A DNA stretch of 64,000 nucleotides from Hymenobacter yonginensis (GTDB lineage Bacteria; Bacteroidota; Bacteroidia; Cytophagales; Hymenobacteraceae). Of the stretch, positions 3,810 through 60,467 are shown piece after piece. The translations under genes were made by a program, and so were the position numbers. The notes beneath the pieces are model-generated. The model made no database searches. It was given only the letters and a program-made list of their open reading frames with translations, and was not told the DNA's origin. The first letter of the stretch is position 1; each line of letters begins with the position of its first letter. The stretch covers positions 3,968,501-4,032,500 of the forward strand of contig NZ_CP115396.1 in assembly GCF_027625995.1 (NCBI RefSeq), read 5' to 3'.

Positions 3810-4484
3810 ATGCGCATCCTCCTGCTTGTTTTTTGCCTGGTGCTGGCCGCCTGCGGTGCTCCTGACTCCGCCGGCCGCCCCGTTGCGCCTCCCACGCCCC
3901 CTCCCCGTATGCAAAACGTCATTTTCTTCGGCAACAGCCTCACGGCCGGCTATCAGCTGCCCGCCAGCGCCGCTTTCCCCACGCTGCTGCAGCAGCGCAT
4001 CGACTCACTCAGCCTGCCTTACAAAGCCTTCAACTACGGTGTGAGCGGCGAAACCACCGCCGGCGGTCGGCTGCGCGTGGCCAGCGTGCTGGAGCGCCAG
4101 CCCGTGGATGTATTCGTGCTAGAGCTGGGCGCCAACGACGGCCTGCGCGGCATTCCGGTGCGCGAAACCACCCAGAACCTGCAGGACATCATCGACCAGG
4201 TGCGGCGCCGGTACCCGGAGGCGCGTATTGTGCTGGTGGGCCTGGAGTTTCCGTTTGATCTGGGGCCGTTGGGCGGGCACCGCATGGCCCGCTACGCGCA
4301 GGAGTTCAAGGCACTGTTCCGGGAGCTGGCCGAAAAGAATAGCCTGCCGTTCGTGCCATTCCTGCTGCAGGGCGTCATCGGGCAGCGCGCCCTCAACCTG
4401 CCCGACGGCGTGCACCCCAACGCCGCCGGCCAGAAGATTCTGGCCGACAACGTGTGGGCGGTGCTGAGTGGGGTGCTGAAGTAG
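3810..4484 (+). CDS. SGNH/GDSL esterase lipoprotein (TesA-like arylesterase)
   Basis: 224 aa. A lipoprotein signal peptide ends in LAAC, with Cys15 as the lipidated residue, so the enzyme is membrane-anchored on the periplasmic or outer-membrane side. Catalytic blocks of the TesA-type SGNH family are intact: GNSLTAG with nucleophile Ser43 (Asp-to-Asn relative to GDSL, common in Bacteroidota homologues), GGR near 85-87, GAND at 107-110, and DGVH with Asp199/His202. Expected to hydrolyse acyl or aryl esters or lysophospholipids; substrate unknown. It stands alone, divergent from the thioredoxin operon, and is followed by a long repeat palindrome. Confidence 0.88.
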   Translation: MRILLLVFCLVLAACGAPDSAGRPVAPPTPPPRMQNVIFFGNSLTAGYQLPASAAFPTLLQQRIDSLSLPYKAFNYGVSGETTAGGRLRVASVLERQPVDVFVLELGANDGLRGIPVRETTQNLQDIIDQVRRRYPEARIVLVGLEFPFDLGPLGGHRMARYAQEFKALFRELAEKNSLPFVPFLLQGVIGQRALNLPDGVHPNAAGQKILADNVWAVLSGVLK

Positions 4485-4496
4485 CCCCGGAAAAGC

Positions 4497-4599
4497 AGAG
4501 CGTCATGCAGAGGCGCCGCCGAAGCATCTCGCCAGTGTGGTAACCTCTTTGATTACCACACTGGCGAGATACTTCGGCGGCGCCTCTGCATGACGCTCT
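4497..4599. repeat. Family A intergenic palindrome, copy 1
   Basis: Two 47-nt arms (4497-4543, 4553-4599) with one mismatch and a 9-nt loop. Each end reads GCGTCATGCAGAGG outward. It lies between convergent genes and shares the GTCAT end and GAAGCATCTCGCC core with the copy at 10978-11072. Confidence 0.9.
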
Positions 4600-4623
4600 A
4601 TTTCAAGACCTAAGCCCTATACG

Positions 4624-6273
4624 CTACGCTTTGTACAGCTTCTGGTAGTACTCCGTAGCCATGCGGCCCGACTCGAACTCGGGCTCCACTTCGCGCATGG
4701 CAGCTTTGGCCACGGCCAGGTACTTGGCGGGCTCGTTGTAGTAGAGCGGCACGATGTCGTTTTCCAGCACGTCCAGCAGGCTGCTGGCTTCGGTGGCGTC
4801 CTTCACGTGGTCGGGCTGGTGGATGTCGGTGTGAGGAATGATGAAGCCGTTTTCGCCGTGGCGCACGAACTCCGGAATCCAGCCGTCGGCGATGCTGAGG
4901 CTGAGGCTGCCGTTCATGGCGGCGGTCATGCCGCTGGTGCCGCTGGCCTCCCGCGGGAAGCGCGGGGTGTTCAGCCACACATCAGAGCCGCGCTTGAGGT
5001 AGCCGGACAGGGCCAGCTCGTAGCCGGTGAGCACGGCGCAGGTTTTCAGGTGCTTGGTTTTCTGGATGATGTCGTTGAAGAGGCCGATGGCGCCGTAGTC
5101 CTTGGGGTAGGGCTTGCCGGCCCACAGCACCTGCACTGGCCGGTCGGTGTTGTTCACCAGGGCCTGGAACCGCTCGAAATCGTGCAGAATCAGGTCGGCG
5201 CGCTTGTAGCCGGCAAAGCGGCGGGCCCACACCACGGTCAGCACCTCGGGGTCGAGGAGGGTGCCGGTCTGGTCGGCCACGAGGTCGAAGAGCTGCTTCT
5301 TGAGCTTACGCTTGCGGGCGAGCAGGGCCTGGTCGTCGTTGGCTTCCAGGGCTTCGTGCAGCTGCTGGTCGCGCCAGTAGCGGCCGTTCTGCGAGTTGGT
5401 GATGGGAATGATGGGGCAGATGCCCTTGTTGGCGCCCCACATCTGGTTGGCCACGGTGCCGTGCACCTTGCTTACGGCGTTGGCTTTGCGCGAGAAGCGC
5501 AGGGCCGTGAGCGTGTAGTTGAGCATCTCATGCTCCACGCCCGCCACGCGGCGAATTTCGTCGGCGGGCACCGAGCCGAAGAAGGTCATGTCGGTGAGCA
5601 GCTTCATGGGGTGCTCCTCGTTGCCGGCCAGTTCGGGCGTGTGCGTTGTGAACACCAGGCGCTTCTGCACTTCTTCCAGCTTGCGGCCGTGCTTTTCGTA
5701 GAGGTAGAACGCCAGCGGCAGGCCGTGGCCCTCGTTGAGGTGGTACACGTCCATCTTCACGCCCAGCAAATCGAGCAGCTTGCCGCCGCCCACACCCAGC
5801 AGGATGCTCTGCGCCACGCGGGCCGCCGTGTCGGCGTCGTAGAGGTGGTGCGAGATGGTGCGCGAGATATAGTCGTTTTCGGGAATGTCGGTGGTCAGGA
5901 AGAACATCGGGGCCGTGCCGAACGTGTCGGGGGCCAGGTACATGGCCTTCACCTGCACGGCCGCGCCGTGGATGGTGATGGGGAAGATCAGGCCGGTGTC
6001 CTGCAGAAACGAGTAGTCTTTGTGGCGGAAGTCGCAGCGCATGGTCTGGTCTTCGTTGCGGCCCTGGTCGTAGTAGCCGAAGCTCCAGAGGATGCCGATG
6101 CCAATCAGGTTCTGCTTGAGCTCGTAGGCCGAGCGCATGTGCGAGCCGGCCAGGAAGCCCAGGCCGCCGGAGTAGGTTTTGAGGGCCTGATCCAGGGCAA
6201 ATTCCATGGAAAAGTACGCCGCCTGGGTGCTGAACTCGGGAGCGGGCGTGTAGGGGTTGAACTCGAAAGCCAT
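4624..6273 (-). CDS. glgP: Alpha-glucan phosphorylase-like enzyme (short GT35 type)
   Basis: 549 aa, matching the short subfamily of glycogen/maltodextrin phosphorylases, which lacks the long regulatory N-terminus. Seen: YFSMEFALDQALKTYSGGLG near 20-40, HLNEGHGLP near 178-186, VVWARRFAGYKRAD near 345-358, and PREASGTSGMTAAMNG near 440-455. Canonical phosphorylases have the PLP-binding lysine at the position after GNM/SGM; here it is Thr450. The enzyme may therefore bind PLP differently or act as another retaining glycosyltransferase. It would release glucose-1-phosphate from cytosolic glucans, fitting the nearby GH13 genes. ATG at 6273 chosen. Confidence 0.75.
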   Translation of the reverse strand: MAFEFNPYTPAPEFSTQAAYFSMEFALDQALKTYSGGLGFLAGSHMRSAYELKQNLIGIGILWSFGYYDQGRNEDQTMRCDFRHKDYSFLQDTGLIFPITIHGAAVQVKAMYLAPDTFGTAPMFFLTTDIPENDYISRTISHHLYDADTAARVAQSILLGVGGGKLLDLLGVKMDVYHLNEGHGLPLAFYLYEKHGRKLEEVQKRLVFTTHTPELAGNEEHPMKLLTDMTFFGSVPADEIRRVAGVEHEMLNYTLTALRFSRKANAVSKVHGTVANQMWGANKGICPIIPITNSQNGRYWRDQQLHEALEANDDQALLARKRKLKKQLFDLVADQTGTLLDPEVLTVVWARRFAGYKRADLILHDFERFQALVNNTDRPVQVLWAGKPYPKDYGAIGLFNDIIQKTKHLKTCAVLTGYELALSGYLKRGSDVWLNTPRFPREASGTSGMTAAMNGSLSLSIADGWIPEFVRHGENGFIIPHTDIHQPDHVKDATEASSLLDVLENDIVPLYYNEPAKYLAVAKAAMREVEPEFESGRMATEYYQKLYKA

Positions 6274-6617
6274 AAAGGGAAGGTCAGAAAACAGAAGATG
6301 CCGCGTAGTCAGGCGGGCGCGGCGGATTCAAATATCGGATTTTCCGCGGGCTGCGCCACCAATGCGGGCTCAGAAGGCAAAAGCGGCCGCAAACTGGTCA
6401 ACGCAGCATTAGCCGTAGGGCATTTTCGGGCGCAGTGGGTCCCGGTATCGGGCTCCGCCGTCGCCGCCGGCCTGCCCCACGCCGGGCGGCAGATTACGAC
6501 CTCATTCGATGGTGGTTAACTTAACGCAAGCTTAACAGTTGGGGCCGTCATACCGGGCGATGGAGAGGGTAGCTTTGCGTTCTTTTTCGCTCTTTCCAAC
6601 CATCTCCAACCAACCGC
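6274..6617. other. Divergent intergenic region, phosphorylase / nuclease
   Basis: No ORF with coding character is seen. The nuclease side carries TAGCTTTG at 6570. The phosphorylase side has GATATTTG at 6329-6336 (minus), one base off the -7 consensus and about 55 nt before that gene. A TTAAC-rich patch (6515-6537: GTTAACTTAACGCAAGCTTA) lies between and could be a regulator site; this is only suggestive. Confidence 0.4.
6570..6577 (+). promoter_or_regulatory. Promoter -7 element TAGCTTTG (nuclease)
   Basis: Exact TAnnTTTG match 40 nt before the nuclease ATG; no clear -33 TTG at 19-nt spacing. Confidence 0.5.
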
Positions 6618-7970
6618 ATGAAATTTCACTTTGCCTGGGCAGCCGCGCTGCTGCTCACAGCCTCCTGCGCCAAGCAGGACCTGAGCCCCGCCACGCCGGC
6701 CGCCACCGCCACCAGCACTGCCGACGTGAGCAGCGCCGGCTTCCCGGAAGGCTTCAACACCGGCACCAAAACCGCCTACACCACCGGCTCCGTCACGCTC
6801 GGCTCGGGCTCCTGGACCCTCAACGACGCCCTGCTGGGCAACACCACCGCCGACCGTAAAACCGGGGCGCAGTCGGTGCGGGTGCGCAACGTGGGCTCCC
6901 TCACCATGAACTTCAACGCCACCACCGGCGCGGGCGTGGTTACGGTGCAGCACGCCGTGTACGGCACCGACGCCGCCTCGCAGTGGGAGCTGTGGGTGAG
7001 CCAGAACAGCGGCAGCAGCTACGCCAAAGTGGGCAGCACCATCACCAGCAGCAGCACCGCCCTGAGCACAGCCTCGTTTACGGTGAACCTGAGCGGCAAC
7101 GTGCGCCTGCAGATCCGCAAAACCAGCGGCGGCACCAACCGCATCAACTTCGACAACGTGACGGTGGAGCAGTACAGCGGAACCACGCCGCCGCCACCAC
7201 CGCCCGTGGCTGGCGACAACCAGCACCTGACCATGGGCAACCCCAGCGGGGCTGCGGCCGACGTCAGCATGCCCACCAACTACCTACTCAATAAGCCGCA
7301 GTATGCGCTGAGCTACCACCGCGACCGGGGTATTCCTAACTGGGTCAGCTGGCACTTGGATACCAGCTGGCGCGGCTCCGCCGCCCGCCAAGATGACTTC
7401 CGGGCCGACAACACCCTGCCCGCCGGCTGGTACCAAGTGCAGGCTACCAGCTACAGTGGTTCCGGCTTCGACCGTGGCCACAACTGCCCCTCCGCGGACC
7501 GCACCAACACCGTGGCCAACAACTCGGCCACGTTCCTGATGACCAACATGATTCCCCAGTCGCCCAACAACAACCAAATTACCTGGGCAGCGCTGGAAAA
7601 CTACTCCCGCACGCTCATGGACCAGGGTAACGAGCTCTACATCATCATGGGCGCCTACGGCCGCGGCGGCACTGGCTCGGCCGGCTACTTCGAAACCATC
7701 GACCAGGGCCGCATCCAGGTACCGGCCCGCGTGTGGAAGGTTCTCGTGGTGCTGCCTGTCGGCAGCACCGATGTGAGCCGCGTGTCGGCTGCTACCCGCA
7801 TCATCGCCATCGACACGCCCAATCAGCAGGGGCTGACCAGCAACTGGGGTCAGTATCGCACCAGCGTCGACGCCATTGAGGCTGCCACCGGCCTCGACCT
7901 ACTTTCCGCTTTGCCCGCCAGCGTGCAGCAGGTGGTGGAAGCCCAGGTCGACAACGGCCCGACCAACTAA
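6618..7970 (+). CDS. Secreted DNA/RNA non-specific endonuclease (NUC family) lipoprotein
   Basis: 450 aa. The signal peptide ends in LTASC (Cys17), a lipobox. Residues about 40-190 form a Ser/Thr/Gly-rich beta-type module (ends FDNVTVEQY) that looks like an accessory jelly-roll domain. A proline linker (TTPPPPPPV) follows, then the NUC domain to the end. The catalytic motif is FDRGHNCPSADRT with His288, and MTNMIPQSPNNN supplies the metal-site Asn, as in Serratia-type nucleases. Predicted to degrade extracellular nucleic acid for nutrient recovery. It lies between the phosphorylase and the GH13 gene with its own promoter and terminator, so it is not part of the glucan cluster by function. Confidence 0.9.
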   Translation: MKFHFAWAAALLLTASCAKQDLSPATPAATATSTADVSSAGFPEGFNTGTKTAYTTGSVTLGSGSWTLNDALLGNTTADRKTGAQSVRVRNVGSLTMNFNATTGAGVVTVQHAVYGTDAASQWELWVSQNSGSSYAKVGSTITSSSTALSTASFTVNLSGNVRLQIRKTSGGTNRINFDNVTVEQYSGTTPPPPPPVAGDNQHLTMGNPSGAAADVSMPTNYLLNKPQYALSYHRDRGIPNWVSWHLDTSWRGSAARQDDFRADNTLPAGWYQVQATSYSGSGFDRGHNCPSADRTNTVANNSATFLMTNMIPQSPNNNQITWAALENYSRTLMDQGNELYIIMGAYGRGGTGSAGYFETIDQGRIQVPARVWKVLVVLPVGSTDVSRVSAATRIIAIDTPNQQGLTSNWGQYRTSVDAIEAATGLDLLSALPASVQQVVEAQVDNGPTN

Positions 7971-8081
7971 GGTGCCCTGGCCCACCTGCGAGCCACGCCC
8001 GCCTGCACCTGAACGCCTCGCTGTGGCTGGCCAAGTTGCAGTAGTCCGCTAACGCCGGCGGCGTCCCGCCCCCTTTTTCCG

Positions 8082-8120
8082 AAGCCCCGCTGCCTGGTTT
8101 GCAGGCGGCGGGGCTTTTTC
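8082..8120 (+). terminator. Intrinsic terminator after the nuclease
   Basis: GC hairpin AAGCCCCGC-TGCCTG / CAGGCGGCGGGGCTT (one bulge) followed by TTTTTC; about 110 nt after the nuclease stop. Confidence 0.8.
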
Positions 8121-8259
8121 GTTGGCGGGGTGCCGGGCCGGCCCGCCGAAACCACAAAAACCAGTCAACAGGACACCATTTCCGCGCAGTTCAGCATTAT
8201 CTTCTCCGGGTGTTCCGGCCGTAACTTGGCGGCCTTTCCGATCAATTCCCCCAGTGCTC

Positions 8260-10170
8260 ATGATTTCTTCCCGCTTTCTGCCCTTGCTGGCTGGCGTGCT
8301 GCTGGCTACGGCGCCTGCCGCCACCGCCCTGGCTGCCCCGGCCCCGGCCGTTACCGAAGCTGCCGCCCCGGCCGCCAAAACCGCCGCCATCCAGCGCATA
8401 GACCCCACCTTCTGGTGGGTGGGCATGAAAAACCCCAAGCTGCAGTTGCTGGTCCACGGCCCCGGCATTGCCGGCAGCACCGCTACACTCAAAGCCTACG
8501 AGGGCGTGACGCTGGACGGCGTGCAGAAGCTGGAGAGCCCCAACTACCTGCTCATCAACCTCACCATCAGCCCCACGGCCAAGCCCGGCAAGCTGCAGCT
8601 GGAGTTTCAGGGCGCCAAGAAAACCACCTTCGCCTACGAGCTGAAGCAGCGCACCACGCCCGGCGACAAGCAGAAGGTGCAGGGCCTCACGCAGCAGGAT
8701 TTCATCTACTTCCTGATGCCCGACCGGTTCTCGAACGGCGACCCGAAAAATGACTTCATTAAGGACATGCGCGCCCCCAAAGTGGCCCGCGACTCGATGT
8801 ACGCCCGCCACGGCGGCGACCTGAAGGGCATCGAAAACCACTTCGACTACTTCAAGAGCCTGGGCGTGACGGCCCTGTGGATGACGCCGGTGGTGGAAAA
8901 CGACATGCCCAAGGCCAGCTACCACGGCTACGCCCTCACCGACTACTACAACACCGACCGCCGCTACGGCACCCTAGAAGAGTACAAGCAGTTTGTGGAC
9001 CGGGCCCACCAGAACGGCCTGAAAGTGGTGCACGACGTGGTGCTCAACCACATGGGCAGTAAGAACTACCTGTTCCTGGACCAGCCCGCCAAGGACTGGT
9101 TCAACCAGTGGCCCAACTTCACGCGCAGCAACTACAACTCGCAGGCTCTCAACGACCCCTACGGCTCCCAGCTGGATGGCAAGCTGTACAACAAAGGCTG
9201 GTTCGACACCACCATGCCCGACGTGAACCAGTCCAACCCACTAGTAGCTACCTACCTGATTCAGAACTTTTTGTGGTGGGTGGAATACACCGGCCTCGAC
9301 GCCTACCGCATCGATACCTACCCGTATTCTGACCCCAAGTTTTTGATGCAGTGGGGCCAGGCCCTGAACGACGAGTTTCCGAACCTGTTCAAGTTTGGCG
9401 AGGCCTGGGTGGGCAGCACGGCCCAGCAGGCCTTCTTCGCCCGCAACATCTTCCAGCCGGTCGATGGCTTCAAGTCCAACCTGGAATCGGTGTTCGATTT
9501 CCAGTCGCAGAACGCCATTCACGAGGCGTTGCGGGGCGACCAGCCCAACCTGAACCGGGTGTACGAAGCTTTGCAGGGCGACTGGATGTACGAGGACGCC
9601 ACCCGCAACGTCACCTTCCTCGACAACCACGACATGAGTCGCTTCTACTCGGTGATTGGGGAGGACTTCAACAAGTACAAGCTGGGCGTGGCCTGGCTGC
9701 TCACCACCCGCGGCATTCCGCAGCTCTATTACGGCACCGAGGTGCTGATGAAGAACTTCTCCAACCCCGACGGCAAGGTGCGCGAGGACTTCCCCGGCGG
9801 CTTCAGCGGCGACAAAATGAACTACTTCACGGCGGCCGGCCGCACGGGCCAGGCGGGTGAGGCGTTCAACTACCTCAGCAAGCTGAGCCTCTACCGCCAG
9901 GCCCACCCGGTGCTGGCTACTGGCAAGCTCATGCAGTTCATCCCGCAGGACGGCGTGTACACCTACTTCCGCTACAACGACCAAGGCGAGGCGGTAATGA
10001 TCCTGCTCAACGGCAACAAAGACGAGAAAACCGTGGACGGCGCGCGGTTCGTGGAGCGCACCGGCGGCTTCTCGTCGGGCACGGAAATCACCACCGGCGC
10101 TTCTGTTTCGGACCTCAAGAGCTTTAAGGTGCCGGGCCGCACGGCTTGGGTGGTGGAGCTGAAAAAGTAA
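8260..10170 (+). CDS. Exported GH13 cyclomaltodextrinase / neopullulanase-type alpha-glucan hydrolase
   Basis: 636 aa from ATG 8260 (MISSRFLPLLAGVL), which gives a clean Sec signal peptide ending near ALAAP. An N-terminal beta domain typical of cyclomaltodextrinases (about 45-140) precedes a full GH13 barrel. Catalytic residues are visible: nucleophile Asp352 in DAYRIDTY, acid/base Glu381 in FGEAWVG, and Asp458 in FLDNHDMSRF; HDVVLNHMG is region I. The closest functional parallel is periplasmic SusA/neopullulanase, cutting cyclodextrins, pullulan or maltodextrins. A longer in-frame reading back to 8122 would put sequence before the signal peptide and is rejected. First enzyme of the alpha-glucan group that ends with the MFS transporter. 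Confidence 0.88.
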   Translation: MISSRFLPLLAGVLLATAPAATALAAPAPAVTEAAAPAAKTAAIQRIDPTFWWVGMKNPKLQLLVHGPGIAGSTATLKAYEGVTLDGVQKLESPNYLLINLTISPTAKPGKLQLEFQGAKKTTFAYELKQRTTPGDKQKVQGLTQQDFIYFLMPDRFSNGDPKNDFIKDMRAPKVARDSMYARHGGDLKGIENHFDYFKSLGVTALWMTPVVENDMPKASYHGYALTDYYNTDRRYGTLEEYKQFVDRAHQNGLKVVHDVVLNHMGSKNYLFLDQPAKDWFNQWPNFTRSNYNSQALNDPYGSQLDGKLYNKGWFDTTMPDVNQSNPLVATYLIQNFLWWVEYTGLDAYRIDTYPYSDPKFLMQWGQALNDEFPNLFKFGEAWVGSTAQQAFFARNIFQPVDGFKSNLESVFDFQSQNAIHEALRGDQPNLNRVYEALQGDWMYEDATRNVTFLDNHDMSRFYSVIGEDFNKYKLGVAWLLTTRGIPQLYYGTEVLMKNFSNPDGKVREDFPGGFSGDKMNYFTAAGRTGQAGEAFNYLSKLSLYRQAHPVLATGKLMQFIPQDGVYTYFRYNDQGEAVMILLNGNKDEKTVDGARFVERTGGFSSGTEITTGASVSDLKSFKVPGRTAWVVELKK

Positions 10171-24402: not shown

Positions 24403-24514
24403 GTAGCGTGAAGCCTTTGCTTCGCGCAGCGTTGAACGACTACCGGGCTGAATATTGTTCACTACGGACGCCCTCGCAGCTTGGCGCTGTTATGCACGAA
24501 GCAAAAGTTTCGCG
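24403..24514. repeat. Family C repeat (GAAGCCTTTGCTTCGCG), copy 1
   Basis: GTAGCGTGAAGCCTTTGCTT at one end and CGAAGCAAAAGTTTCGCG at the other form an inverted pair, with TTGGCGCTGT inside. The same words in the same order occur at 47714-47807. Confidence 0.75.
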
Positions 24515-24527
24515 TCAGGCCCGCCAG

Positions 24528-24566
24528 AATCCGTGTAATCCGAGAAATTCGTCTAAATCCGTGATG
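24528..24566 (+). repeat. 9-nt periodic leader repeat ending in the mnmG start
   Basis: Units AATCCGTGT / AATCCGAGA / AATTCGTCT / AAATCCGTGAT; the last unit contains the ATG of mnmG. Related units precede the genes at 26759 and 62751. Confidence 0.6.
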
Positions 24567-26429
24567 CAACAAGAAGAATACGATGTCATTGTAGTAGGAG
24601 CCGGGCACGCCGGCTGCGAGGCTGCCGCCGCGGCCGCCAACATGGGCTCCAAGGTCCTGCTGGTGACGATGAACATGAACACCATCGCGCAGATGTCGTG
24701 CAACCCGGCCATGGGCGGGGTGGCCAAGGGCCAGATTGTGCGCGAGGTAGACGCGCTGGGCGGCCAGTCGGGCATCATCACCGACAAAACCATGATTCAG
24801 TTCCGGATGCTGAACCGCTCCAAAGGCCCCGCCATGTGGAGCCCCCGGGCGCAGTCGGACCGCATGCGCTTCGCCGAAGAATGGCGCATGACGCTGGAGC
24901 AGACGCCCAATGTGGATTTCTGGCAGGAAGCCGTGACGGGCCTCGTGGTGGAAGACGGCGTGTGTGTGGGCGTGAAAACCCAGATCGGCATCGAGTTCCG
25001 GGGCAAGTCGGTGGTACTCACCAACGGCACGTTCCTGAACGGCCTCATCCACATCGGGGAGAAGCAGTTTGGCGGCGGCCGCGCGGCCGAGAAGGGCAGC
25101 ACTGGTATCACGGAGCAACTGATTGAGTTGGGCTTCGAAGCCGGCCGCATGAAAACCGGCACCCCGCCCCGCGTAGACGGCCGCAGCCTCGACTACAGCA
25201 AGATGGAGGAGCAGGCCGGCGACGCTGAGCCCAGCAAATTCAGCTACCTCGACACGCCCGCGCTGCGCAACCAGCGCCCGTGCTACATCACCTACACCAA
25301 CTCCGAGGTCCACGAAATCCTGAAGGAGGGCTTCGAGAAGTCGCCGATGTTCCAGGGCCGCATAAAGGGTCTGGGGCCACGCTACTGCCCCTCGGTAGAG
25401 GACAAAATCAACCGCTTTGCCGACAAGGACCGCCACCAGATTTTTGTGGAGCCGGAAGGTTGGTCTACGGTGGAAGTGTATGTGAACGGCTTTAGCTCTT
25501 CGTTGCCCGAGGACGTGCAGTACCGCGCCCTGCGCAAGATTGCCGGCTTCGAAAACGCCAAGATGTTCCGCCCCGGCTACGCCATTGAGTACGACTTCTT
25601 CCCGCCGACGCAGTTGCAGCTTACCCTGGAGACCAAGCTGATCCAGAACCTGTACTTCGCGGGCCAGATCAACGGCACCACGGGCTACGAGGAGGCCGCC
25701 TGCCAGGGTTTGATGGCCGGCATCAACGCCCACAACAAGGTGCACAGCAAGGCCCCCTTCGTGCTCAAGCGCAGTGAAGCCTACATCGGCGTGCTCATCG
25801 ACGACTTGGTGAACAAGGGCACCGACGAGCCCTACCGCATGTTCACGAGCCGCGCCGAGCACCGCCTGCTGCTACGCCAGGACAACGCCGACCTGCGCCT
25901 CACGCCGCTGGGCTACGAACTGGGGCTGGCCTCGGAGGAGCGCATGCAGCTGGTGCGCGAAAAGGAGCAGCAGACTAAGGAAGTAGCCAAGTTGCTGAAG
26001 AACTTCGGCATCGAGCCCCAGGACATCAACTCCTGGCTCACGGAAATCGGCTCGGCCGTTATCAGCGAGAAAACCCGCGCCGTAAACCTGCTGCGCCGCC
26101 CCGGCATTGATTTGCCGGCCCTGGCCCGCGTGCTGCCCGAACTCACCCTGGCTTTGGCCCCGTACCGACCCGACGCGCTGGAGCAGGCCGAAATTCTGGT
26201 GAAGTATGAGGCTTACCTGGAAAAGGAGCACCAGCAGGCCGCCCGCGTGCAGGAGCTGGAAAACTTCGTGATTCAGGGCCGCCTCGACTACACCGCCATG
26301 CCGGCCCTCTCGCACGAAGCCCGCGAGAAGCTGCTCAAGATTCAGCCCGAAACCCTGGGCCAGGCCAGCCGCATCAGCGGCGTGTCGCCTGCGGATGTGT
26401 CGGTGCTGATGGTGTACCTGGGGCGGTAG
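24564..26429 (+). CDS. mnmG: tRNA uridine-5-carboxymethylaminomethyl modification enzyme MnmG (GidA)
   Basis: 621 aa from ATG 24564 ([17 protein letters not shown]), the normal MnmG start; the frame is open upstream through repeat DNA and earlier starts are rejected. FAD motif [10 protein letters not shown] (residues 11-20), the family words CNPAMGG and [12 protein letters not shown], and [13 protein letters not shown] near 375-390 are all present, and length matches the family. With MnmE it forms cmnm5U34 in tRNA anticodons. mnmG often lies near the origin of replication in bacteria, which agrees with the DnaA-box cluster 4 kb downstream. A hairpin terminator follows at 26634. Confidence 0.95.
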
Positions 26430-27656: not shown

Positions 27657-28016
27657 ATGCGCACGCCGGCGGCTCTGGTACTCGGACTCCTGCTGGCCGC
27701 CGGGCCTTTGTCTGGGCGGAGCGGTAGGGTAGGGGAGGGGCTACCGCGTTGGCAGTCAGCCAGTGTCACTCAGCCGCTGCCGGCGCATACGGCCCGGCCC
27801 CGGTCCGGCGTTAGGGTAGCCTCGTATACGCCCGATACCACCCGCCGCCCTTTTGCCGACACGCTCCAACAACGCCCCGCCTTGGTACCCGACCCGCCCA
27901 CGCCGGCGGCCGAGGACGACGACAAGCCGACCCGCAAGACGGCGCTTTTTGCCGCCCTTGCGTTGGCCCTAATTACCATTTCCACGCTTCTGCTCTACAA
28001 TGTCCGCTCGCGCTAG
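27657..28016 (+). CDS. Small secreted/membrane protein of unknown function
   Basis: 119 aa. An N-terminal signal-like segment (LVLGLLLAAGPLSG), a Pro/Arg/Thr-rich middle and one C-terminal membrane helix (TALFAALALALITISTLLLY) ending in NVRSR. No family recognised. Starts 4 nt after the methyltransferase stop and overlaps the following lipoprotein start by 17 nt, which favours translational coupling and argues that it is real despite its biased composition. Confidence 0.6.
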   Translation: MRTPAALVLGLLLAAGPLSGRSGRVGEGLPRWQSASVTQPLPAHTARPRSGVRVASYTPDTTRRPFADTLQQRPALVPDPPTPAAEDDDKPTRKTALFAALALALITISTLLLYNVRSR

Positions 28017-29619
28017 TTTCCTGTTCCTGCTTTCGGCCGCTGCTGGTCTGGCCGGTTGCGCTTCCATCAGCTCGCCGCAGGGTGGCCCGCGCGACACGGT
28101 GCCGCCCAAGCTGGTGCGCTCGGTGCCGGCCAATGGCGCCCGCAACTCCCGCACCCAGGTGGTGCGGCTGGAGTTTTCGGAAGCCGTGCAGCTTAAGGAT
28201 CTGCAGAAGAACCTCATCATCGCGCCCACCATCCCCGACGACAACAAGTACAAGGTGCGCGAGGAGCGCAACGCCATTTCGCTGGTGTTCGACAAGCCCC
28301 TCGACGAAAACACCACCTACTCGTTCAACTTCGGCAACGCCATCAGCGACATCACTGAGAGCCTGCCCGCCACCGATGCCCGCGTGAGCTTCAGCACCGG
28401 GGCTGTGCTCGATTCGGGGGCCGTGGTGGGCACCGTGCGCACCCTGCTCACGCAGCAGCCCGCCGATGCCGCCGCCGTGCTGCTCTACCCCGAGGCCGAC
28501 ACCGCCGGCCTGCGCCGCGGCAAGCCCTACTACCTGGCCCGCACCGATAAGAGCGGCGCGTATAGCCTGCGCAACCTGAAGGCCGGCCGCTACCGCCTCT
28601 ACGCCCTGCTCGACAAAAACCAGAACACCCGCTACGACGACGGCGAGAAGATTGCCTACCTGCCCCAGCCCATTACGGTTGGCGCCCGGCCCGATACCGT
28701 GCGCCTAGAGCTGGTGCGTCCCGATGCCCGCCGCCCCGTGGTGAGCGGCCAGCAGGCGGCCCCCACGCAGTTTCGGGTGAGCTACAACGAGGGCCTGCGC
28801 ACGGTCGTGCTGGCTCCGCTCGGGGCGGCCGCCACCGCGCCTTTGGCCGAGGCCCTGCAGTTGCAGGAGCAGGGCCGGGCCGTGGCGCTCTACCGCACCG
28901 CCGCCCTGCAGGAAGGCCGCTACCTGCTGGCCGCCACCGACAGCGCCGGCAACACCAGCCGCGACACCATCAACGTGAAGTTTCAGGGCACGGCGCCCAC
29001 CCGCCGCCCGCCGGTGTACTCGGTGGAAGGCAGCCCGCGCGAAGTGTATAGGCAGGGCGAGGTGCGCTTCGTGTTCACGGAGCCTGTACGCGTGGCGGCC
29101 AGCAAGCCTGCCGTGCTGCTGCAGGAAGATTCCACTACGCGCCGGGCGCTGCCGCTGGGCCCTGAGGTGAAGCTCAGCCCGGACCGCTCGCGCCTCACGG
29201 TGCTACTCAATACCAAAGCAAAAACCACCGTCACGCTCCGCCTCGATACCCTGAACGTCACGACCATTTCGGGGCAGCGACTGGGGGCCCGGCCGTTGCG
29301 GCTGCGCGTTACGGAGCAGTCGGGCACGGGCAGCGTGGCCGGCACCATTCAGACCAAGTACACGCGCTACGACGTGCAGCTGCTTGATGCGCAGGGCGCC
29401 GTGGCCGCTACCCTGGAGAGCCCACGCAACACCTTCCGCTTCGACCGGCTGGCCCCCGGCACCTACACCATCCGGGTGCTGATTGATGCCGACGCCGACG
29501 GCCGCTGGCGCAGCGCCGACCCGCTGCTGCTACAGCCTGCCGAGCCGGTGTACCTGCTGCCCCAGCCTGTGCAGATACGTGCCAACTGGGAAGTGGAAGA
29601 CATCCGCCTAGCGTTCTAG
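28000..29619 (+). CDS. Ig-like (SbsA-type) domain lipoprotein
   Basis: 539 aa. Lipobox GLAGC (Cys20), then ASISSPQGGPRDTVPP, the typical beginning of a common Bacteroidota family. An SbsA-like Ig (Big_5) domain spans about 35-130 (PPKLVRSVPANGARN ... LEFSEAV ... TTYSFNFGNAISD). It is followed by carboxypeptidase-regulatory-like beta segments (SLRNLKAGRYRLYALLDKNQ), and a further pair near the end (FDRLAPGTYTIRVLIDADAD). Predicted to be surface- or periplasm-exposed and structural; no catalytic motif. Last gene of the methyltransferase operon, closed by a strong hairpin. Confidence 0.85.
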   Translation: MSARASFLFLLSAAAGLAGCASISSPQGGPRDTVPPKLVRSVPANGARNSRTQVVRLEFSEAVQLKDLQKNLIIAPTIPDDNKYKVREERNAISLVFDKPLDENTTYSFNFGNAISDITESLPATDARVSFSTGAVLDSGAVVGTVRTLLTQQPADAAAVLLYPEADTAGLRRGKPYYLARTDKSGAYSLRNLKAGRYRLYALLDKNQNTRYDDGEKIAYLPQPITVGARPDTVRLELVRPDARRPVVSGQQAAPTQFRVSYNEGLRTVVLAPLGAAATAPLAEALQLQEQGRAVALYRTAALQEGRYLLAATDSAGNTSRDTINVKFQGTAPTRRPPVYSVEGSPREVYRQGEVRFVFTEPVRVAASKPAVLLQEDSTTRRALPLGPEVKLSPDRSRLTVLLNTKAKTTVTLRLDTLNVTTISGQRLGARPLRLRVTEQSGTGSVAGTIQTKYTRYDVQLLDAQGAVAATLESPRNTFRFDRLAPGTYTIRVLIDADADGRWRSADPLLLQPAEPVYLLPQPVQIRANWEVEDIRLAF

Positions 29620-29775: not shown

Positions 29776-29907
29776 CAGCTCCGGTCCGGCGGCTTCATCA
29801 CCTGCCGGGTCGGCCAGGGTAGGCCTGCGAGTTGGCATGCGGGAGCCGGCCGGTAGTTCTGATGACGACCGGCCCGACGGCTAAAAAGAACCGACGGACC
29901 GGAGCTG
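29776..29907. repeat. Family B palindrome (CCGGTCCGGCGGCTT), copy 1
   Basis: Ends CAGCTCCGGTCCG and CGGACCGGAGCTG are complementary. Internally GGGTCGGCC faces GGCCCGACGGCTAAAA. A second copy with the same layout lies at 58650-58772. Confidence 0.8.
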
Positions 29908-30211
29908 TTCCGCAGTTCACGTTGGGCAGTTGCAGCGGATAAGAGTCCGGCTTTAGCTGGTTGCGCACTGGCAGGCCAGAAACCACCTTTACAGGCCGAA
30001 AAAATGCGTGGAACGCTTTTTCAAGTTACTTCTATTAGGGTGAAATGCGAGTTTCTGATGCGTATGGCCGCTTTTCAATGATTTATGTTCCACGGCTGGC
30101 CGGCCGTGTTCGGGCGGATTCCGGCCGATTTGTGGGGTTTCACCCCCTGTGCGAAGCGCTATCCACATTCAAAACCGGCTTATTCCAGTCACTGAGCGGG
30201 TTTTCTTCTCC

Positions 30212-30676
30212 TTTTCCACAGGTTTTGCACAGCCTTTTCCACTGGCATTCGGCTAAACGGCTTAACCTGTGGATAATACTGCCGCAACCTGGGGATAACG
30301 CGTGGAGAAAATCAGGATAAGTTTTTTTGCGTTTCTGGCTGCCCCTACACCCCCATTCTGCTATCCACACCGCGTGGATAAGGGTGGACAACTTCCCCCG
30401 GTTTTCACCACAATCCACACACCCTGCTGGCTGTGGATTGTGGATTAGTGGATAAGCTATGTGGATTGTGAAAAAGATGGTTATGATTCTTATTGTCAGC
30501 AATTTACTATCCACATACCCTGTTGATAGACGGTGCATAAACCCGAAGCTGTACACAAGTTATCCGCGCTGTGGATTACTCCCGCCGATTGTCCACTTAT
30601 ACACAGCCCTAACGATGGAGATTAAAAAGATTTCTTAAAATTTCTTCTTTTAAAAAGTTATTAACCCTGTGGACAA
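30212..30676. other. oriC: Putative chromosomal replication origin (oriC): DnaA-box cluster
   Basis: About 16 sequences with at most two differences from the DnaA box TTATCCACA lie within 465 bp. Perfect: 30268 (minus). One difference or fitting TTWTNCACA: 30212, 30223, 30290, 30361, 30373, 30439, 30447, 30507, 30570, 30597, 30668. Two differences: 30411, 30432, 30460, 30589. Several are paired head to head (30361/30373) or nearly adjacent (30432-30468). An AT-rich stretch (30613-30665) lies inside the right edge between boxes. No gene with coding character covers the region. mnmG, recF and a parS-like site in the same window support origin proximity. Gene strands do not clearly diverge from this point, which is a caution. 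Confidence 0.7.
30613..30665. other. AT-rich candidate DNA-unwinding element
   Basis: Nearly all A/T (GATTAAAAAGATTTCTTAAA and following bases) in an otherwise GC-rich chromosome, flanked by TTATACACA at 30597 and TGTGGACAA at 30668. Suits the duplex-unwinding element of oriC. Confidence 0.6.
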
Positions 30677-30806: not shown

Positions 30807-31298
30807 ATGCCCTTCAACTACGACCAGGATTTCCGGCACCTCAACCTGCGCGAGCAGCCCGAGCTATACCGCGTGGGCAAGGGCGAGCAGGGTGTGCTGC
30901 TGGTGGAGCCCTACAAAAGCGAAATTCTGCCCCACTGGCGCTTCCGCACGCCCGCAGTGGCCCGGGAGTCGTCGGAAACTATTTATGGGCTGTTTGAGGC
31001 CTATCTGAAGGCGCACGACTTTGTGGGAGCCGACATGGCCCGGAAGTTCCTGCAGATGGGCTTCACGCGTGCCCGGCGCTACGCCAACCACCAGGGCGGC
31101 AAAAAGTACGCGGGGCCCGTGCCGGCCGATAAGAAGGGCCAGAGCGGGGCCCACGGCCGCGAGGAGCTACCCCGCTCGCCCGAAGACCCCGAAAAAGCCG
31201 AAGCCGCCGCCATATTTAAGCGCAAATGGGACCAGGCCAAAACCCACCCCGACTACGTGCAGCAGCGCGCCGATTTTGAAGCTCGCTACGGGAAATGA
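30807..31298 (+). CDS. DUF4385-like protein
   Basis: 163 aa from ATG 30807 (MPFNYDQDFRHLNLRE). The opening FxYDxDFRxLNLRE, LVEPYKSEILPHWRF near 40-55 and the Arg/Lys-rich GFTRARRYANHQGGKKY near 88-105 resemble the DUF4385 family, which has no established function. Cytosolic and basic in the middle, so nucleic-acid contact is conceivable but unproven. It lies immediately right of the DnaA-box cluster, between it and a second cluster at 31994. Confidence 0.75.
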   Translation: MPFNYDQDFRHLNLREQPELYRVGKGEQGVLLVEPYKSEILPHWRFRTPAVARESSETIYGLFEAYLKAHDFVGADMARKFLQMGFTRARRYANHQGGKKYAGPVPADKKGQSGAHGREELPRSPEDPEKAEAAAIFKRKWDQAKTHPDYVQQRADFEARYGK

Positions 31299-31499
31299 GC
31301 CGTGAAATGTTGATAAGCCGGTGCATAGTGTTGATAGGTGGCCGGTAGTTGCCGCTGCCAAATAAAGCCGGCCCCGATTGCGCCCGCGCGGTGCCCCAGT
31401 AAGCAGGGAATCCGCCTGCACCTACTAGGCCGCCGCCACTTATCAACCCTCAACCTCCTACCTTTACTTTCTCCAAGAACTACCCCCAACCCAAGCGCT

Positions 31500-31985
31500 A
31501 TGACCCCGACAAACGCAACGCCTCAGAGCCTCGACGAAAACGAAATTACCCTGGGCACCGGCATGGGCCCGCTCCGCTTCGGGGCCACCATGGACGAGGT
31601 GCGCGCCCTGATGGGTGAGCCCGAAGAAATCGAAGAGTCGGAAGACGACGACGAGTTTGAGCACCAGGCCTGGAACTACCTCGAGGAAGGTTACTCTCTG
31701 TACTTCGACCGCGAAGACGACTTCCGCCTGAGCTGCATCGAAACCGACCACCCCGGCATGCGCCTTTATGGCGAGAACATCCACGGCAAAACGCCCGACG
31801 AAATCCAGGCCCTCATGAGCCGCCACGGCCACGAAGCCAGCGAGACCGAGAAGATGGATACCGGCGAAATGCGCATTTCCTACGAGAAGGAAATGATTGA
31901 CCTTTACTTTGATGAGAACGAGCTGCAGTTTGTCAACTTCGGGGTGTTTATATCCGAAGACCTTGACGTACAGTGGCCTGCCTAA
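31500..31985 (+). CDS. Acidic hypothetical protein, 161 aa
   Basis: Start ATG 31500 (MTPTNATPQSLDENEI). Strongly acidic (EEIEESEDDDEFEH near 43-56), with a pattern MGPLRFGATMDEVRALMGEP that is typical of small proteins with a beta-turn-helix 'GxxxxEVxxxLGxP' motif. No family assigned. A TACCTTTA sequence at 31459 is a possible -7 element. It lies between the two DnaA-box clusters; its stop is 8 nt before the second cluster. Confidence 0.7.
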   Translation: MTPTNATPQSLDENEITLGTGMGPLRFGATMDEVRALMGEPEEIEESEDDDEFEHQAWNYLEEGYSLYFDREDDFRLSCIETDHPGMRLYGENIHGKTPDEIQALMSRHGHEASETEKMDTGEMRISYEKEMIDLYFDENELQFVNFGVFISEDLDVQWPA

Positions 31986-31993
31986 AACCAAGG

Positions 31994-32036
31994 TTATCCA
32001 CAAAACACGGCAAAAACCGTGTGGATAAGTGGATAA
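31994..32036. other. Second DnaA-box cluster
   Basis: Two perfect DnaA boxes in opposite orientation (31994-32002 plus; 32020-32028 minus) flank a small hairpin ACACGG-CAAAAA-CCGTGT, with a third box AGTGGATAA at 32028-32036. With the main cluster it brackets two small genes. Confidence 0.65.
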
Positions 32037-32127
32037 GTGGCTGATTTTGTAAGTATTTAGCCTGCACTATACTACAGCCAGCCAGCAGTTATCCTCATTT
32101 TGCCCACTGCCCAAAAAGCAGGCACAT

Positions 32128-32161
32128 AAAAAAGCCGCTCTTGCAAAAGAGCGGCTTTTTT
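32128..32161. terminator. Bidirectional terminator
   Basis: 15-bp arms (32128-32142, 32147-32161), AAAAAAGCCGCTCTT and complement, between the acidic protein (+) and the convergent phosphate transporter (-). Confidence 0.9.
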
Positions 32162-32191
32162 GTATTAAGGCAGGAAAGGTGCCGCTGGCTG

Positions 32192-33595
32192 CTAGCCCAG
32201 AATGGCGCGGAACAGCAGGAACAAACCGCCTGACAGCGCCATCGTTACGGGCAGCGTGAGCACCCAGGCCAGGGCAATGTTGCGCACCATCTGCGGGTTC
32301 AGGTTCTTGATGCCGCGGTTGGCCACCATCGAGCCGGCAATGGCCGATGACAGCACGTGCGTGGTGGAAGCCGGCAGGCCGTAGGCGGTGTTCACGCCAA
32401 TCATGGCGGCGGCCACCAGCTCCGACGAAGCGCCCTGGGCGTAGGTCAGGTGCTCCTTGCCGATCCGTTCGCCGATGGTTTTCACGATGCGCTGCCAGCC
32501 GATCATAGTGCCGCAGGCCAACGACAGCGACACGGCCAGCAGCACCCAGAAGGGGGCGTAGTCCGTGAACGACTTCATGTTGGCAATGGCCGTGTCGTAG
32601 GTGGCGCGGTCGGCGGTGCTCAGGCTTACCCGCTCGCTGCCGAGCAGCTTCTTGGCGCGGTTCGAGGTCAGCAGGATGCCTTTGCGGATCTGGAAGCGGG
32701 CGTCCTGTGGGAGCTGGGCCACGCTGGTTTTGCCGGCGAAAATGGCGTCGAGCGTGTCGGTCTGGCTTTTGATTTCGGCCAGCATCTTCTGGTCGGCGGG
32801 GCTCAGCTCGGTGGGGTTTACTTTGCCCATCACCTGCTCAATCTTCACCAGCGAGTCGCGCATGTCCAGCGGGTTCTTGCCGTTGTCGAGGGCGAAATAG
32901 GTGGGCACGATGCCGATCAGGATCAGCATGATCAGACCCACGCCTTTCTGGCCGTCGTTGGAGCCGTGGAAAAAGCTCACCAGCGTGCAGGTGGCAATCA
33001 GGATCAGGCGGATCCAGATGGGCGGTGGCTTGTGCTTGTTGGGCTCCTTGAAGATGGACTTGTTGCGCACAAACCGCTTCAGTAAGAACATCATGATGAT
33101 AGTGAGCGAGAAGCCGAACAGCGGGCCCGTGAGCAGGGCAATGCCGGTTTCGCCGGCCTTGCTCCAGTTGACGGCCGCGTTCTGCGAGCCGGGCAGCAAG
33201 CTGAAGGCAATGCCTACCCCCAGGATAGACCCAATCAGGGCGTGCGACGACGACGAGGGCAGACCGTAGTACCAGGTGCCCACGTTCCAGATGATGGCCC
33301 CCAGAATCAGGGCCCCCACCATGGCAATGCCGTGGTAGACGTTCTGATCGACGAGGCTTTCGACGGGCAGCAGGTACACGATGCCCATGGCCACGGCAAT
33401 GCCGCCGGAAAACACGCCGATGAAATTCCAGAACGCCGACCAGACTACGGCCACCCAGGGCCGCAGGGCGTTGGTGTAGATGACCGTGGCCACGGCGTTG
33501 GCCGTGTCGTGAAAGCCATTAACAAATTCGAACGCGCAGGCCGCTACCAGGCAGGCAGCCAGCAACAGCAGCACGTGAGGCTCTAAGCCAAACAT
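32192..33595 (-). CDS. pit: PiT-family inorganic phosphate transporter
   Basis: 467 aa from ATG 33595. Both Pho4/PiT signature repeats are present: FEFVNGFHDTANAVAT (residues about 19-34) and GVNTAYGLPASTTHVLSSAI near the C-terminus (about 408-427). SFFHGSNDGQKGVG marks the second half. A soluble insert of about 100 residues (roughly 255-355: DMRDSLVKIEQVMGK and following) separates the membrane halves. Low-affinity H+- or Na+-coupled phosphate uptake in the inner membrane. Single gene with a well-spaced promoter at 33632-33661; that promoter rules out the longer in-frame start at 33661. Confidence 0.92.
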   Translation of the reverse strand: MFGLEPHVLLLLAACLVAACAFEFVNGFHDTANAVATVIYTNALRPWVAVVWSAFWNFIGVFSGGIAVAMGIVYLLPVESLVDQNVYHGIAMVGALILGAIIWNVGTWYYGLPSSSSHALIGSILGVGIAFSLLPGSQNAAVNWSKAGETGIALLTGPLFGFSLTIIMMFLLKRFVRNKSIFKEPNKHKPPPIWIRLILIATCTLVSFFHGSNDGQKGVGLIMLILIGIVPTYFALDNGKNPLDMRDSLVKIEQVMGKVNPTELSPADQKMLAEIKSQTDTLDAIFAGKTSVAQLPQDARFQIRKGILLTSNRAKKLLGSERVSLSTADRATYDTAIANMKSFTDYAPFWVLLAVSLSLACGTMIGWQRIVKTIGERIGKEHLTYAQGASSELVAAAMIGVNTAYGLPASTTHVLSSAIAGSMVANRGIKNLNPQMVRNIALAWVLTLPVTMALSGGLFLLFRAILG

Positions 33596-33631
33596 AAGAA
33601 GGGAATTGGTGAAAAGACGGTTTTCATCATC

Positions 33632-33661
33632 CAAAGGTAGACTTACCCTTAGGGGCGGCAA
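33632..33661 (-). promoter_or_regulatory. Promoter TTG-N19-TACCTTTG for pit
   Basis: On the minus strand: -33 TTG (33659-33661), 19-nt spacer, -7 TACCTTTG (33632-33639), then about 37 nt to the ATG. The best-spaced Bacteroidota promoter in the window together with 46815-46845. Confidence 0.7.
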
Positions 33662-57691: not shown

Positions 57692-57707
57692 CGTTCCACG
57701 TGAAACA
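57692..57707. other. parS: parS-like ParB binding site
   Basis: CGTTCCACGTGAAACA matches 15 of 16 bases of the ParB site consensus TGTTNCACGTGAAACA (first base differs). Flanks CAAAAA and TTTTTG extend the near-palindrome to 28 bp (57686-57713). The only such site in the window. Confidence 0.75.
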
Positions 57708-58942: not shown

Positions 58943-59260
58943 CTATAGGAATACCACTTCCTTGATGACTGCCTCGCCTACCTCGTCGTTGATGAGCTGC
59001 ATCACCCGGGTCTTGGCCATCACCAGTTCATGCTTGAGCGGGGCGGAAGAAAGCCGCACGAAAAGCTTGCCGTTGCTCACGTACACCTCCTGGGTTTTCA
59101 GCGCCACGGCCTTGCCCATCACTTTCTCCCAGCTGCCCACTACCGTCACCTCGTTGAGCTTGCCCTGCAGCCGGTAGGCCTTCAGCAACGACTGAATACT
59201 GTCTTTGAGGGACACGATATCGGCACGACGCGAGTTTTCGGAGTTGCTTGGTTTTTTCAC
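58943..59260 (-). CDS. DUF721 (DciA-like) domain protein
   Basis: 105 aa from GTG 59260 (VKKPSNSENSRRADIVSLKD). The DUF721 core runs from about 15 to 105 (LKDSIQSLLKAYRLQGKLNE ... GSWEKVMGKAVALKT ... LFVRLSSAPLKHELVMAK). The family includes DciA, the replicative-helicase operator of bacteria lacking DnaC, so it may load DnaB; this fits the recF neighbour and origin-proximal setting. An upstream GTG at 59335 lies before the TACCTTTG element and is therefore rejected. It has its own promoter in the 82-nt gap after recF. Confidence 0.8.
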   Translation of the reverse strand: MKKPSNSENSRRADIVSLKDSIQSLLKAYRLQGKLNEVTVVGSWEKVMGKAVALKTQEVYVSNGKLFVRLSSAPLKHELVMAKTRVMQLINDEVGEAVIKEVVFL

Positions 59261-59317
59261 GTCGGGTCGATATACTAATGCGCGGAGAATGCCGCTGCGC
59301 CTAGAGCGGCGGCTACG

Positions 59318-59325
59318 CAAAGGTA
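59318..59325 (-). promoter_or_regulatory. Promoter -7 element TACCTTTG (DUF721 gene)
   Basis: Exact TAnnTTTG on the minus strand, 58 nt before the GTG at 59260; decides the start of the DUF721 protein. Confidence 0.5.
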
Positions 59326-59342
59326 AGGCGCCCACGCTCGGC

Positions 59343-60467
59343 TTACACGGCGCGCACCGTGCCGGCCTCCACCCGAAACCGGTTGATCTGCTCGGTGATG
59401 CTGGACAGCGCCAGGTCGGTACGGTCGAGGTGAGTGTCGGTGAGAAAGATCTGCCCGAAGGTATGGTCGGCTACGAGTTGCAGCAACCGCACAATGCGCT
59501 TCTCATCCAGCCGGTCGAAAATGTCGTCGAGCAGGAGCAGGGGCTTCTGCTGCTTGCGCGCTGCCAGAATTTCAAACTGCGCCAGCTTGAGCGCAATGAC
59601 GTAGGACTTCTGCTGGCCCTGCGAGCCATAGCTCTTCACCGGCAGCCCGTCCATTAGAAACACGAAGTCGTCTTTGTGCGGGCCGGCGGTAGTGCGCTGC
59701 AACGCCAGGTCTTTGCGCTCCTGCACCCGAAGTAGCTTGGCAAAGTCGGTTTCGGGCAGCTGACTCTTATAGGTAAGCAGCACCTCTTCCCGGCTGTCGG
59801 CCAGCAGCTGGTAGTGGCGCTGGAAGAGCGGCTCGAAGTCCAGCAGAAACTGCTGGCGGGCCGCCACCAGCTGCAAGCCCAGCGGCACCAGCTGTTCGTC
59901 TAGCACCAGCAGGTAGTCCCGGTCGTATCCGCCTTGGCGCTCGGCGGCCAGCTTCAGCAGCGAGTTGCGCTGCCGCAGCACATGGTTGTAGGAGATGAGG
60001 AGCTCCAGGTAGGCATGGTCGAGCTGCGAGATGAGGCTGTCGAAATACTTGCGGCGCTCCTCGCTGCCCTGCCGGATCAGGTCGGTGTCGTAGGGCGAGA
60101 TGAGCACGGCGGGGTAGCGGCCGATGTGGTCGGCTATCCGGTCGTAGGGCTGCTTGTTGCGGGCCACCACCTTTTTCTGTCCAGCCCGCAAGCTCACCTG
60201 AATAGCCTCCGGACCAGCCGCCTCGGCCGCCTCGTCGGCGGGCTGGAAGCGGCCCTTCACCACGAAGAACTCCTCGCCCTGCTTGATGCTCTGGGCATCG
60301 ACGGAAGTGAAGGCGCTCTTGGTAAGCGAGAGGTAATGGATGGCGTCGAGCAAGTTGGTCTTGCCGCTGCCGTTGTCGCCGATGAAGCAGTTGATGCGCG
60401 GCGACAGGCGCAAATTCGCTTCATCGTAGTTTTTGAAGAACAGCAGCTGCAGGCTTTCCAGTATCAT
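59343..60467 (-). CDS. recF: DNA replication/repair protein RecF
   Basis: 374 aa, full length. Walker A GDNGSGKTN at residues 30-38 after FFKNYDEANLRLSP. YGSQGQQKSYVIALKLAQF near 280-298 is the ABC-type signature region, and PLLLLDDIFDRLDEKR near 312-327 is Walker B/D-loop. It loads RecA on gapped DNA with RecO and RecR. In many bacteria recF is near dnaA/dnaN at the origin; here it is next to a DUF721 gene and a divergent PDH gene, the common Bacteroidota arrangement. Confidence 0.95.
   Translation of the reverse strand: MILESLQLLFFKNYDEANLRLSPRINCFIGDNGSGKTNLLDAIHYLSLTKSAFTSVDAQSIKQGEEFFVVKGRFQPADEAAEAAGPEAIQVSLRAGQKKVVARNKQPYDRIADHIGRYPAVLISPYDTDLIRQGSEERRKYFDSLISQLDHAYLELLISYNHVLRQRNSLLKLAAERQGGYDRDYLLVLDEQLVPLGLQLVAARQQFLLDFEPLFQRHYQLLADSREEVLLTYKSQLPETDFAKLLRVQERKDLALQRTTAGPHKDDFVFLMDGLPVKSYGSQGQQKSYVIALKLAQFEILAARKQQKPLLLLDDIFDRLDEKRIVRLLQLVADHTFGQIFLTDTHLDRTDLALSSITEQINRFRVEAGTVRAV

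Follow-up and report, generated by a model that had tools for sequence, protein, structure and literature searches.

A probable chromosomal replication origin far from dnaA in Hymenobacter, with a conserved DnaA-box triad beside it

The 64,000-nucleotide stretch of Hymenobacter yonginensis DNA analysed here (the window) contains a dense cluster of DnaA boxes, which raises the question of whether the chromosome starts to replicate at this place, away from dnaA. An oriC separate from dnaA is a known kind, according to the available part of the Ori-Finder 2022 paper (PMC10225481). We examined the window itself and ran chromosome-wide tests on Hymenobacter relatives rather than on the window's own chromosome. 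The nearest relative genome (G001) is 96% identical to the window across 2.6 kb around the locus, and the DUF4385 protein encoded next to the cluster shares 96% identity with its counterpart in a Hymenobacter relative.

DnaA boxes, AT-rich stretch and neighbouring genes

Within 30212–30676 (465 bp) we detected 11 boxes with at most one mismatch to TTATCCACA and 25 with at most two; a twelfth one-mismatch box lies just outside, at 30159. The clustering claimed in a preliminary description of the window is borne out, and its count of about 16 falls between these two figures. Markov shuffles of the same segment contained on average 0.15 boxes at the stricter threshold (maximum 3, n = 2000) and 1.73 at the looser one (maximum 8). 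Across the whole window, 22 one-mismatch boxes were present versus 4.95 expected, a number reached in none of 100 shuffles. The GC content of the segment is 44.7%, compared with 61.2% for the window. Two open reading frames run over the cluster, of 91 amino acids on the plus strand and 138 on the minus strand. Neither matched Pfam, and the minus-strand frame is interrupted by stops in nearly all of the best 30 tblastn rows against 57 relatives, so that, as far as can be seen, no gene covers the cluster, as had been stated. DnaA boxes beyond chance expectation in non-coding DNA, a feature expected of an oriC, are thus present here. The window has no Rfam match at the gathering threshold and no tRNA gene.

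The AT-rich stretch first described beside the boxes (30613–30665, 53 bp) is 79% AT but is not the most AT-rich of the window, being exceeded by one near 54.9 kb. The slightly longer interval between its border boxes (Table 1) is probably a DNA-unwinding element. Such an element adjoining DnaA boxes is expected of an oriC, and here sequence and conservation both point to one.

Table 1 Features of the window discussed in the text (coordinates are window positions)
Feature	Coordinates	Strand	Basis
mnmG	24408..26429	+	TIGR00136, E 1.2e-255
Gene with Big_5 domain, left neighbour of the putative origin; lipoprotein-like start judged by eye	28000..29619	+	Pfam
DnaA-box cluster of the putative origin, 12 boxes with at most one mismatch to TTATCCACA, both orientations	30159..30676		Box scan; block in 57/57 loci
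Two tandem boxes, TTGTCCACT and TTATACACA, overlapping by 1 base; left border of AT-rich stretch	30589..30605	+	Box scan, conservation
AT-rich stretch (62 bp) between border boxes, putative DNA-unwinding element	30606..30667		Sequence and conservation
Box TTGTCCACA, right border of AT-rich stretch	30668..30676	-	Box scan, conservation
DUF4385 gene, used to fetch relatives	30807..31298	+	PF14328, E 1.9e-69
Small gene without Pfam or NCBIfam match, between cluster and distal triad	31500..31985	+	ORF list
Distal triad: TTATCCACA (+), 17 bp, TGTGGATAA (-), third box (-) starting 8 bp further	31994..32036		Box scan, 57 loci
Further box TTATCCTCA beyond triad	32089..32097	+	Box scan
Phosphate transporter gene, PHO4 family, convergent neighbour	32192..33661	-	Family match
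parS-like site CGTTCCACGTGAAACA	57692..57707	+	Pattern search
dciA, replicative helicase operator gene	58943..59335	-	PF05258, E 3.1e-15
recF	59343..60467	-	SMC_N 'RecF/RecN/SMC', E 1.3e-17

The same window holds mnmG, recF and a parS-like site, as originally reported. The name recF was assigned because of the SMC_N match, the look of the protein and its place beside dciA. Flanking genes had been described as mostly plus-strand on both sides, and this holds by a listing of longest reading frames, which misses the minus-strand recF and dciA. Two further features were seen close to the cluster. Just upstream, at 29776–29907, lies an element with 17-bp inverted arms. Its right part is repeated in G001: scoring 40 of 83 candidates gave at least 18 match rows, which fall at about 13 places. 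On the other side, three TTATCAAC-type boxes at 31308–31448 precede the small gene.

Conservation and position on the chromosome

We fetched related loci through the neighbouring DUF4385 gene and kept 80 of 548 found, 57 from Hymenobacter (L006–L061 and L067) and 23 from other genera. Two of the 57 derive from metagenome-assembled genomes and two carry an identical strain name, so these are not exactly 57 species. Comparison of related genomes, proposed earlier as a check, showed the locus to be conserved across the genus: the AT-rich block with its border boxes was found at all 57 Hymenobacter loci, spanning 85–89 bp with 0–2 mismatches to the left-hand motif, and a 700-bp stretch contained 4–20 boxes, with 55 of the 57 loci having 5 or more. 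The 23 loci of other genera had at most 3 boxes per 500 bp around the DUF4385 gene and did not keep the block. At one locus (L015, H. metallicola) the block, with its boxes kept, lies about 6.3 kb upstream of the DUF4385 gene. The 5.5–6 kb of extra DNA between the two (about 3900–9400 of that locus) has a GC content of 0.45–0.61 and includes reading frames of 705, 405 and 301 amino acids.

A DNA-similarity search found the cluster in 48 of 61 Hymenobacter genomes; the unwinding-element motif was present in 11 of the other 13 and absent from G030 and G043. Searching 192 genomes of the family with this motif gave matches in 83, of which 77 are Hymenobacter (110 searched) and 6 belong to other genera (82 searched). 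Those six outside matches, one per genome (L202–L207), had at most 2 boxes per 600 bp and were therefore treated as chance matches, not as origins; the motif search did not locate the origin of sister genera.

Placement relative to dnaA, rRNA operons and parS-like sites was tested in 15 Hymenobacter genomes. A dnaA gene was found in all 61 genomes searched, and in the 15 it lies 0.97–2.44 Mb from the locus; a position next to dnaA is usual for an oriC, not required. Highly expressed genes are expected to be directed away from an oriC, and 35 of 37 rRNA operons are directed away from this locus, compared with 23 of 37 from dnaA. The two contrary operons are in G029 and G018. None of 20,000 random origin placements reached 35 of 37 (maximum 33, or 31 with corrected sequence lengths), a figure that overstates significance because the relatives are not independent; since 7 of the 15 sequence lengths were also rounded genome sizes, these odds are only a guide. 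The search for 16S genes succeeded in 16 of 18 genomes. It gave 41 rows, of which 37 were used, including one partial row of G001, after removal of two G060 rows on other contigs, a partial G035 row and a G001 fragment below the cut-off.

Each of the 15 genomes has a single copy of the parS-like pattern GTTYCACGTGRAAC, and none has the reversed control pattern. The site is always on the same side of the locus, 20.9–28.3 kb off (27.3 kb in the window). All 15 genomes have parB genes, that of G001 lying 1.3 Mb from the parS-like site. Beyond this site and past a thioesterase gene, 28–30 kb from the locus, are dciA and recF. According to the accessible text of PMC5109545, dciA is found in the dnaA-dnaN-recF-gyrB-gyrA operon, or by recF or gyrB when these genes are scattered, in 15 of 23 phyla including Bacteroidetes. 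We infer that recF and dciA are left over here from an ancestral origin neighbourhood that dnaA has left.

A stronger box cluster elsewhere had been named as an observation that would count against the locus. None was found in sampled stretches of two relatives or in three dnaA flanks: apart from the locus itself, none of 60 stretches from G001 or 40 from G058 exceeded 3 boxes per 500 bp, and the dnaA flanks had at most one box. The samples cover 1.2 of 4.87 Mb (G001) and 0.8 of 3.78 Mb (G058), which is where degenerate boxes were scanned. Exact boxes were counted in all of G001 and number 16, three near the locus and three near 1.381 Mb.

Plain GC skew was computed from 59 of the 60 G001 stretches (the first, at 40% GC, was left out) and from the 40 of G058. 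That first stretch (L092, C1:1-20000) is 20 kb at 40% GC versus 58–65% in the other samples and is perhaps a foreign island. In G001 the sampled cumulative skew reaches its lowest point 122 kb from the locus, a distance of 2.5% of the chromosome, and peaks 188 kb from the locus antipode. With origin and terminus set opposite each other, the best-fitting origin is 150 kb from the locus (bootstrap −190 to +660 kb around the locus), and 6.1% of positions fit the plain skew as well as the locus. For G058 the single origin that fits best lies 17 kb from the locus, with bootstrap limits of −1057 and +243 kb; 3.2% of positions are as good as the locus, and the skew peaks 42 kb from the antipode. The raw cumulative minimum of G058, however, is on a flat stretch 847 kb from the locus, a distance of 22% of the chromosome. 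Permutation of stretches gave P values of 0.0002 (G001) and 0.0076 (G058) for the arm difference in plain skew. A fit to fourfold sites of G001 with the gene strand removed placed the best origin at about 1.12 Mb, with a bootstrap range (0.78–2.52 Mb) that contains the locus at 1.94 Mb. In G001 both flanks of the locus have positive skew, and coding-strand co-orientation is 0.488 at the locus, 0.505 at dnaA and 0.538 at the best position, so that the direction of coding sequence taken together does not favour the locus. At fourfold sites the coding strand is usually rich in C, plus-strand genes having mostly negative and minus-strand genes mostly positive skew. GC skew is dominated by gene strand, so that replication skew is masked and simple skew-based origin finding would mislead. 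Given the wide bootstrap ranges and the strand-corrected fit, the sampled skew is supportive of an origin at the locus but weak. The cumulative-skew check proposed in the preliminary description, run here on stretches of relatives, thus came out weakly in favour by the G001 minimum and the best origin of G058, and against by the raw minimum of G058.

We rejected a plasmid, phage or mobile origin because the block accompanies the DUF4385 gene at 57 loci (directly at 56, and with extra DNA between in H. metallicola) and because the locus shares a contig with dnaA and rRNA genes in 15 genomes.

A distal DnaA-box triad

A group of three boxes sits 1.3 kb past the AT-rich stretch, between the small gene and the convergent phosphate transporter gene (Table 1). 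Its 17-bp-gap inverted pair (at most one mismatch of 18) and third box (at most two mismatches) recur at constant spacing at 57 of 57 Hymenobacter loci. Beyond the interval from −1300 to +1700 relative to the DUF4385 start, these loci contained no other 17-bp-gap pair, and the 23 loci of other genera contained none. The triad is a predicted second DnaA-binding element of the origin region; most likely it would act by looping, to help build the initiation complex or to adjust it.

Taking the neighbouring cluster as the origin, three roles of the triad can be weighed. It is quite possible, though short of an even chance, that the origin is bipartite and the triad its second half, required for DnaA to assemble by looping over the two intervening genes. 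The fixed spacing, the presence of all three boxes at every Hymenobacter locus and the confinement of the 17-bp-gap pair to this place argue for such a role, and looping between box groups has been proposed within incC of Bacillus subtilis (available part of PMC6669920); however, a regulatory site would look alike, and the AT-rich stretch already has a dense cluster of its own. Less probably, the triad would recharge or gate DnaA from within the origin region. In that case a Hymenobacter origin would include a DARS-like controller of its own, 1.3 kb away from the unwinding element, where E. coli uses remote sites, and the triad would be one of a larger set of inverted pairs, with a gap of 17 bp here and of 7 bp by nrdB in some genomes. 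It is quite unlikely that the triad is a transcription-linked site, such as a DnaA-dependent roadblock between convergent genes. Its location would suit that role, between the stop of the small gene and a hairpin with a T-run at about 32131–32161, ahead of the convergent transporter gene, but a roadblock would not need such strict box spacing; as a terminator scan of 31900–32300 gave no sites, the hairpin is a by-eye reading only.

Inverted pairs with any gap of 3–18 bp were found in at least 60 of 61 genomes across the genus (control 0), a count that includes pairs at other places. The 7-bp gap is about one helical turn shorter than the 17-bp gap. One 7-bp-gap pair lies by rplU/rpmA and nrdB (L217 3469, L218 3500, L221 3583, L222 3306 and L224 3357), the nrdB gene (ribonucleotide reductase small chain) being called by Pfam in L217 and by similarity in L218, L221 and L222, and not called in L224. 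This position suggests that DnaA may control nrdB; nrdAB in E. coli is under DnaA control. Another 7-bp-gap pair is inside an NAD(P)H-hydrate dehydratase/epimerase gene at six loci (L214 3205, L215 3354, L216 3464, L220 3266, L223 3219 and L225 3188), identified by Pfam in L214 and by similarity in the other five. A 4-bp-gap pair was seen beside an MFS transporter gene (L226 3216, L227 2961 and L228 2835; Pfam-tested in L226 only).

Proposed initiation and comparison with known systems

The earlier proposal of an origin away from dnaA is supported by the box cluster, the AT-rich block, conservation in the genus, rRNA polarity, the single parS-like site and the dciA-recF pair, and with high confidence we regard the stretch as the chromosomal replication origin (oriC) of Hymenobacter, far from dnaA. 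It is very improbable that the cluster is instead a DnaA-titrating or DnaA-regulating site (datA-like or DARS-like) with the true origin elsewhere, for example near dnaA: box clusters may inactivate or recharge DnaA without being origins (accessible part of PMC5742627) and GC skew alone does not fix the origin, but such a site would leave unexplained the conserved AT-rich stretch with border boxes, the rRNA operons directed away from the locus more than from dnaA, the only parS-like site lying near the cluster, and the lack of a comparable cluster in the sampled stretches and dnaA flanks.

With the locus as oriC, DnaA, made about 1 Mb or more away, would bind the box cluster, and the border boxes would steer it onto the AT-rich stretch, which would open. 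The replicative helicase would be loaded next, probably with DciA, and two forks would depart. ParB at the single parS-like site, 27 kb off, may help to separate the copied origins.

No published description of a Hymenobacter origin was found among open-licence papers, partly judged by title or start of abstract; DoriC may list predicted ones. We would call new the defined genus-wide origin anatomy and the invariant triad. The default indicator gene of Ori-Finder 2022 is dnaA (available part of PMC10225481), and in Hymenobacter this gene would mislead origin finding. A defined origin would make growth rates readable from coverage, offer a site for building replicating plasmids and make initiation testable in this branch of Bacteroidota, and the triad gives a precise target for the study of initiation control in Hymenobacter.

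Like the 13-mer region of E. coli oriC, the AT-rich stretch is T-rich, and one 13-mer fits the E. coli consensus at 9 of 11 defined bases; the next best fit at only 7 of 11, and here boxes stand on both borders of the AT-rich stretch. The basal unwinding system (BUS) of B. subtilis oriC likewise has two tandem boxes beside an AT-rich stretch, then a short C-rich spacer (available parts of PMC8287927 and PMC6669920). Our simplified form of the published BUS rule (accessible part of PMC8287927) asks for at least three consecutive DnaA-trios (NAN) within 16 bp of a box. Unlike the B. subtilis system, the window has no such run on either side of its AT-rich stretch (runs of 1 on the left and 2 on the right). 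Among the 57 relatives, left-hand runs of 3 occur in 2 and right-hand runs of 3 or 4 in 19, so that a minority would pass.

The triad resembles the core of E. coli DARS1 and DARS2, in which the first box is opposite to the other two and the spacing is identical in both sites (available part of PMC5742627); this order and orientation of three boxes is present at all 57 Hymenobacter loci. Start-to-start spacing is +26 and +34 in the triad versus +14 and +26 in the E. coli cores as located here, DARS1 having been placed between bioD and uvrB by the only box geometry in common with the DARS2 stretch when as many as 3 mismatches were allowed in each box. The two E. coli sites are located between oriC and terC (same source), whereas the Hymenobacter triad is at the origin. 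We have not filed the triad as a DARS because its spacing differs, although order and orientation agree. The closest parallel for the locus as a whole is an oriC distant from dnaA, of the kind in Ori-Finder and DoriC, with which it shares a box cluster, AT-rich intergenic DNA, rRNA polarity, a nearby parS-like site and dnaA elsewhere. What sets Hymenobacter apart is its neighbours, the DUF4385 gene and the Big_5-domain gene, and the fixed-spacing triad 1.3 kb on.
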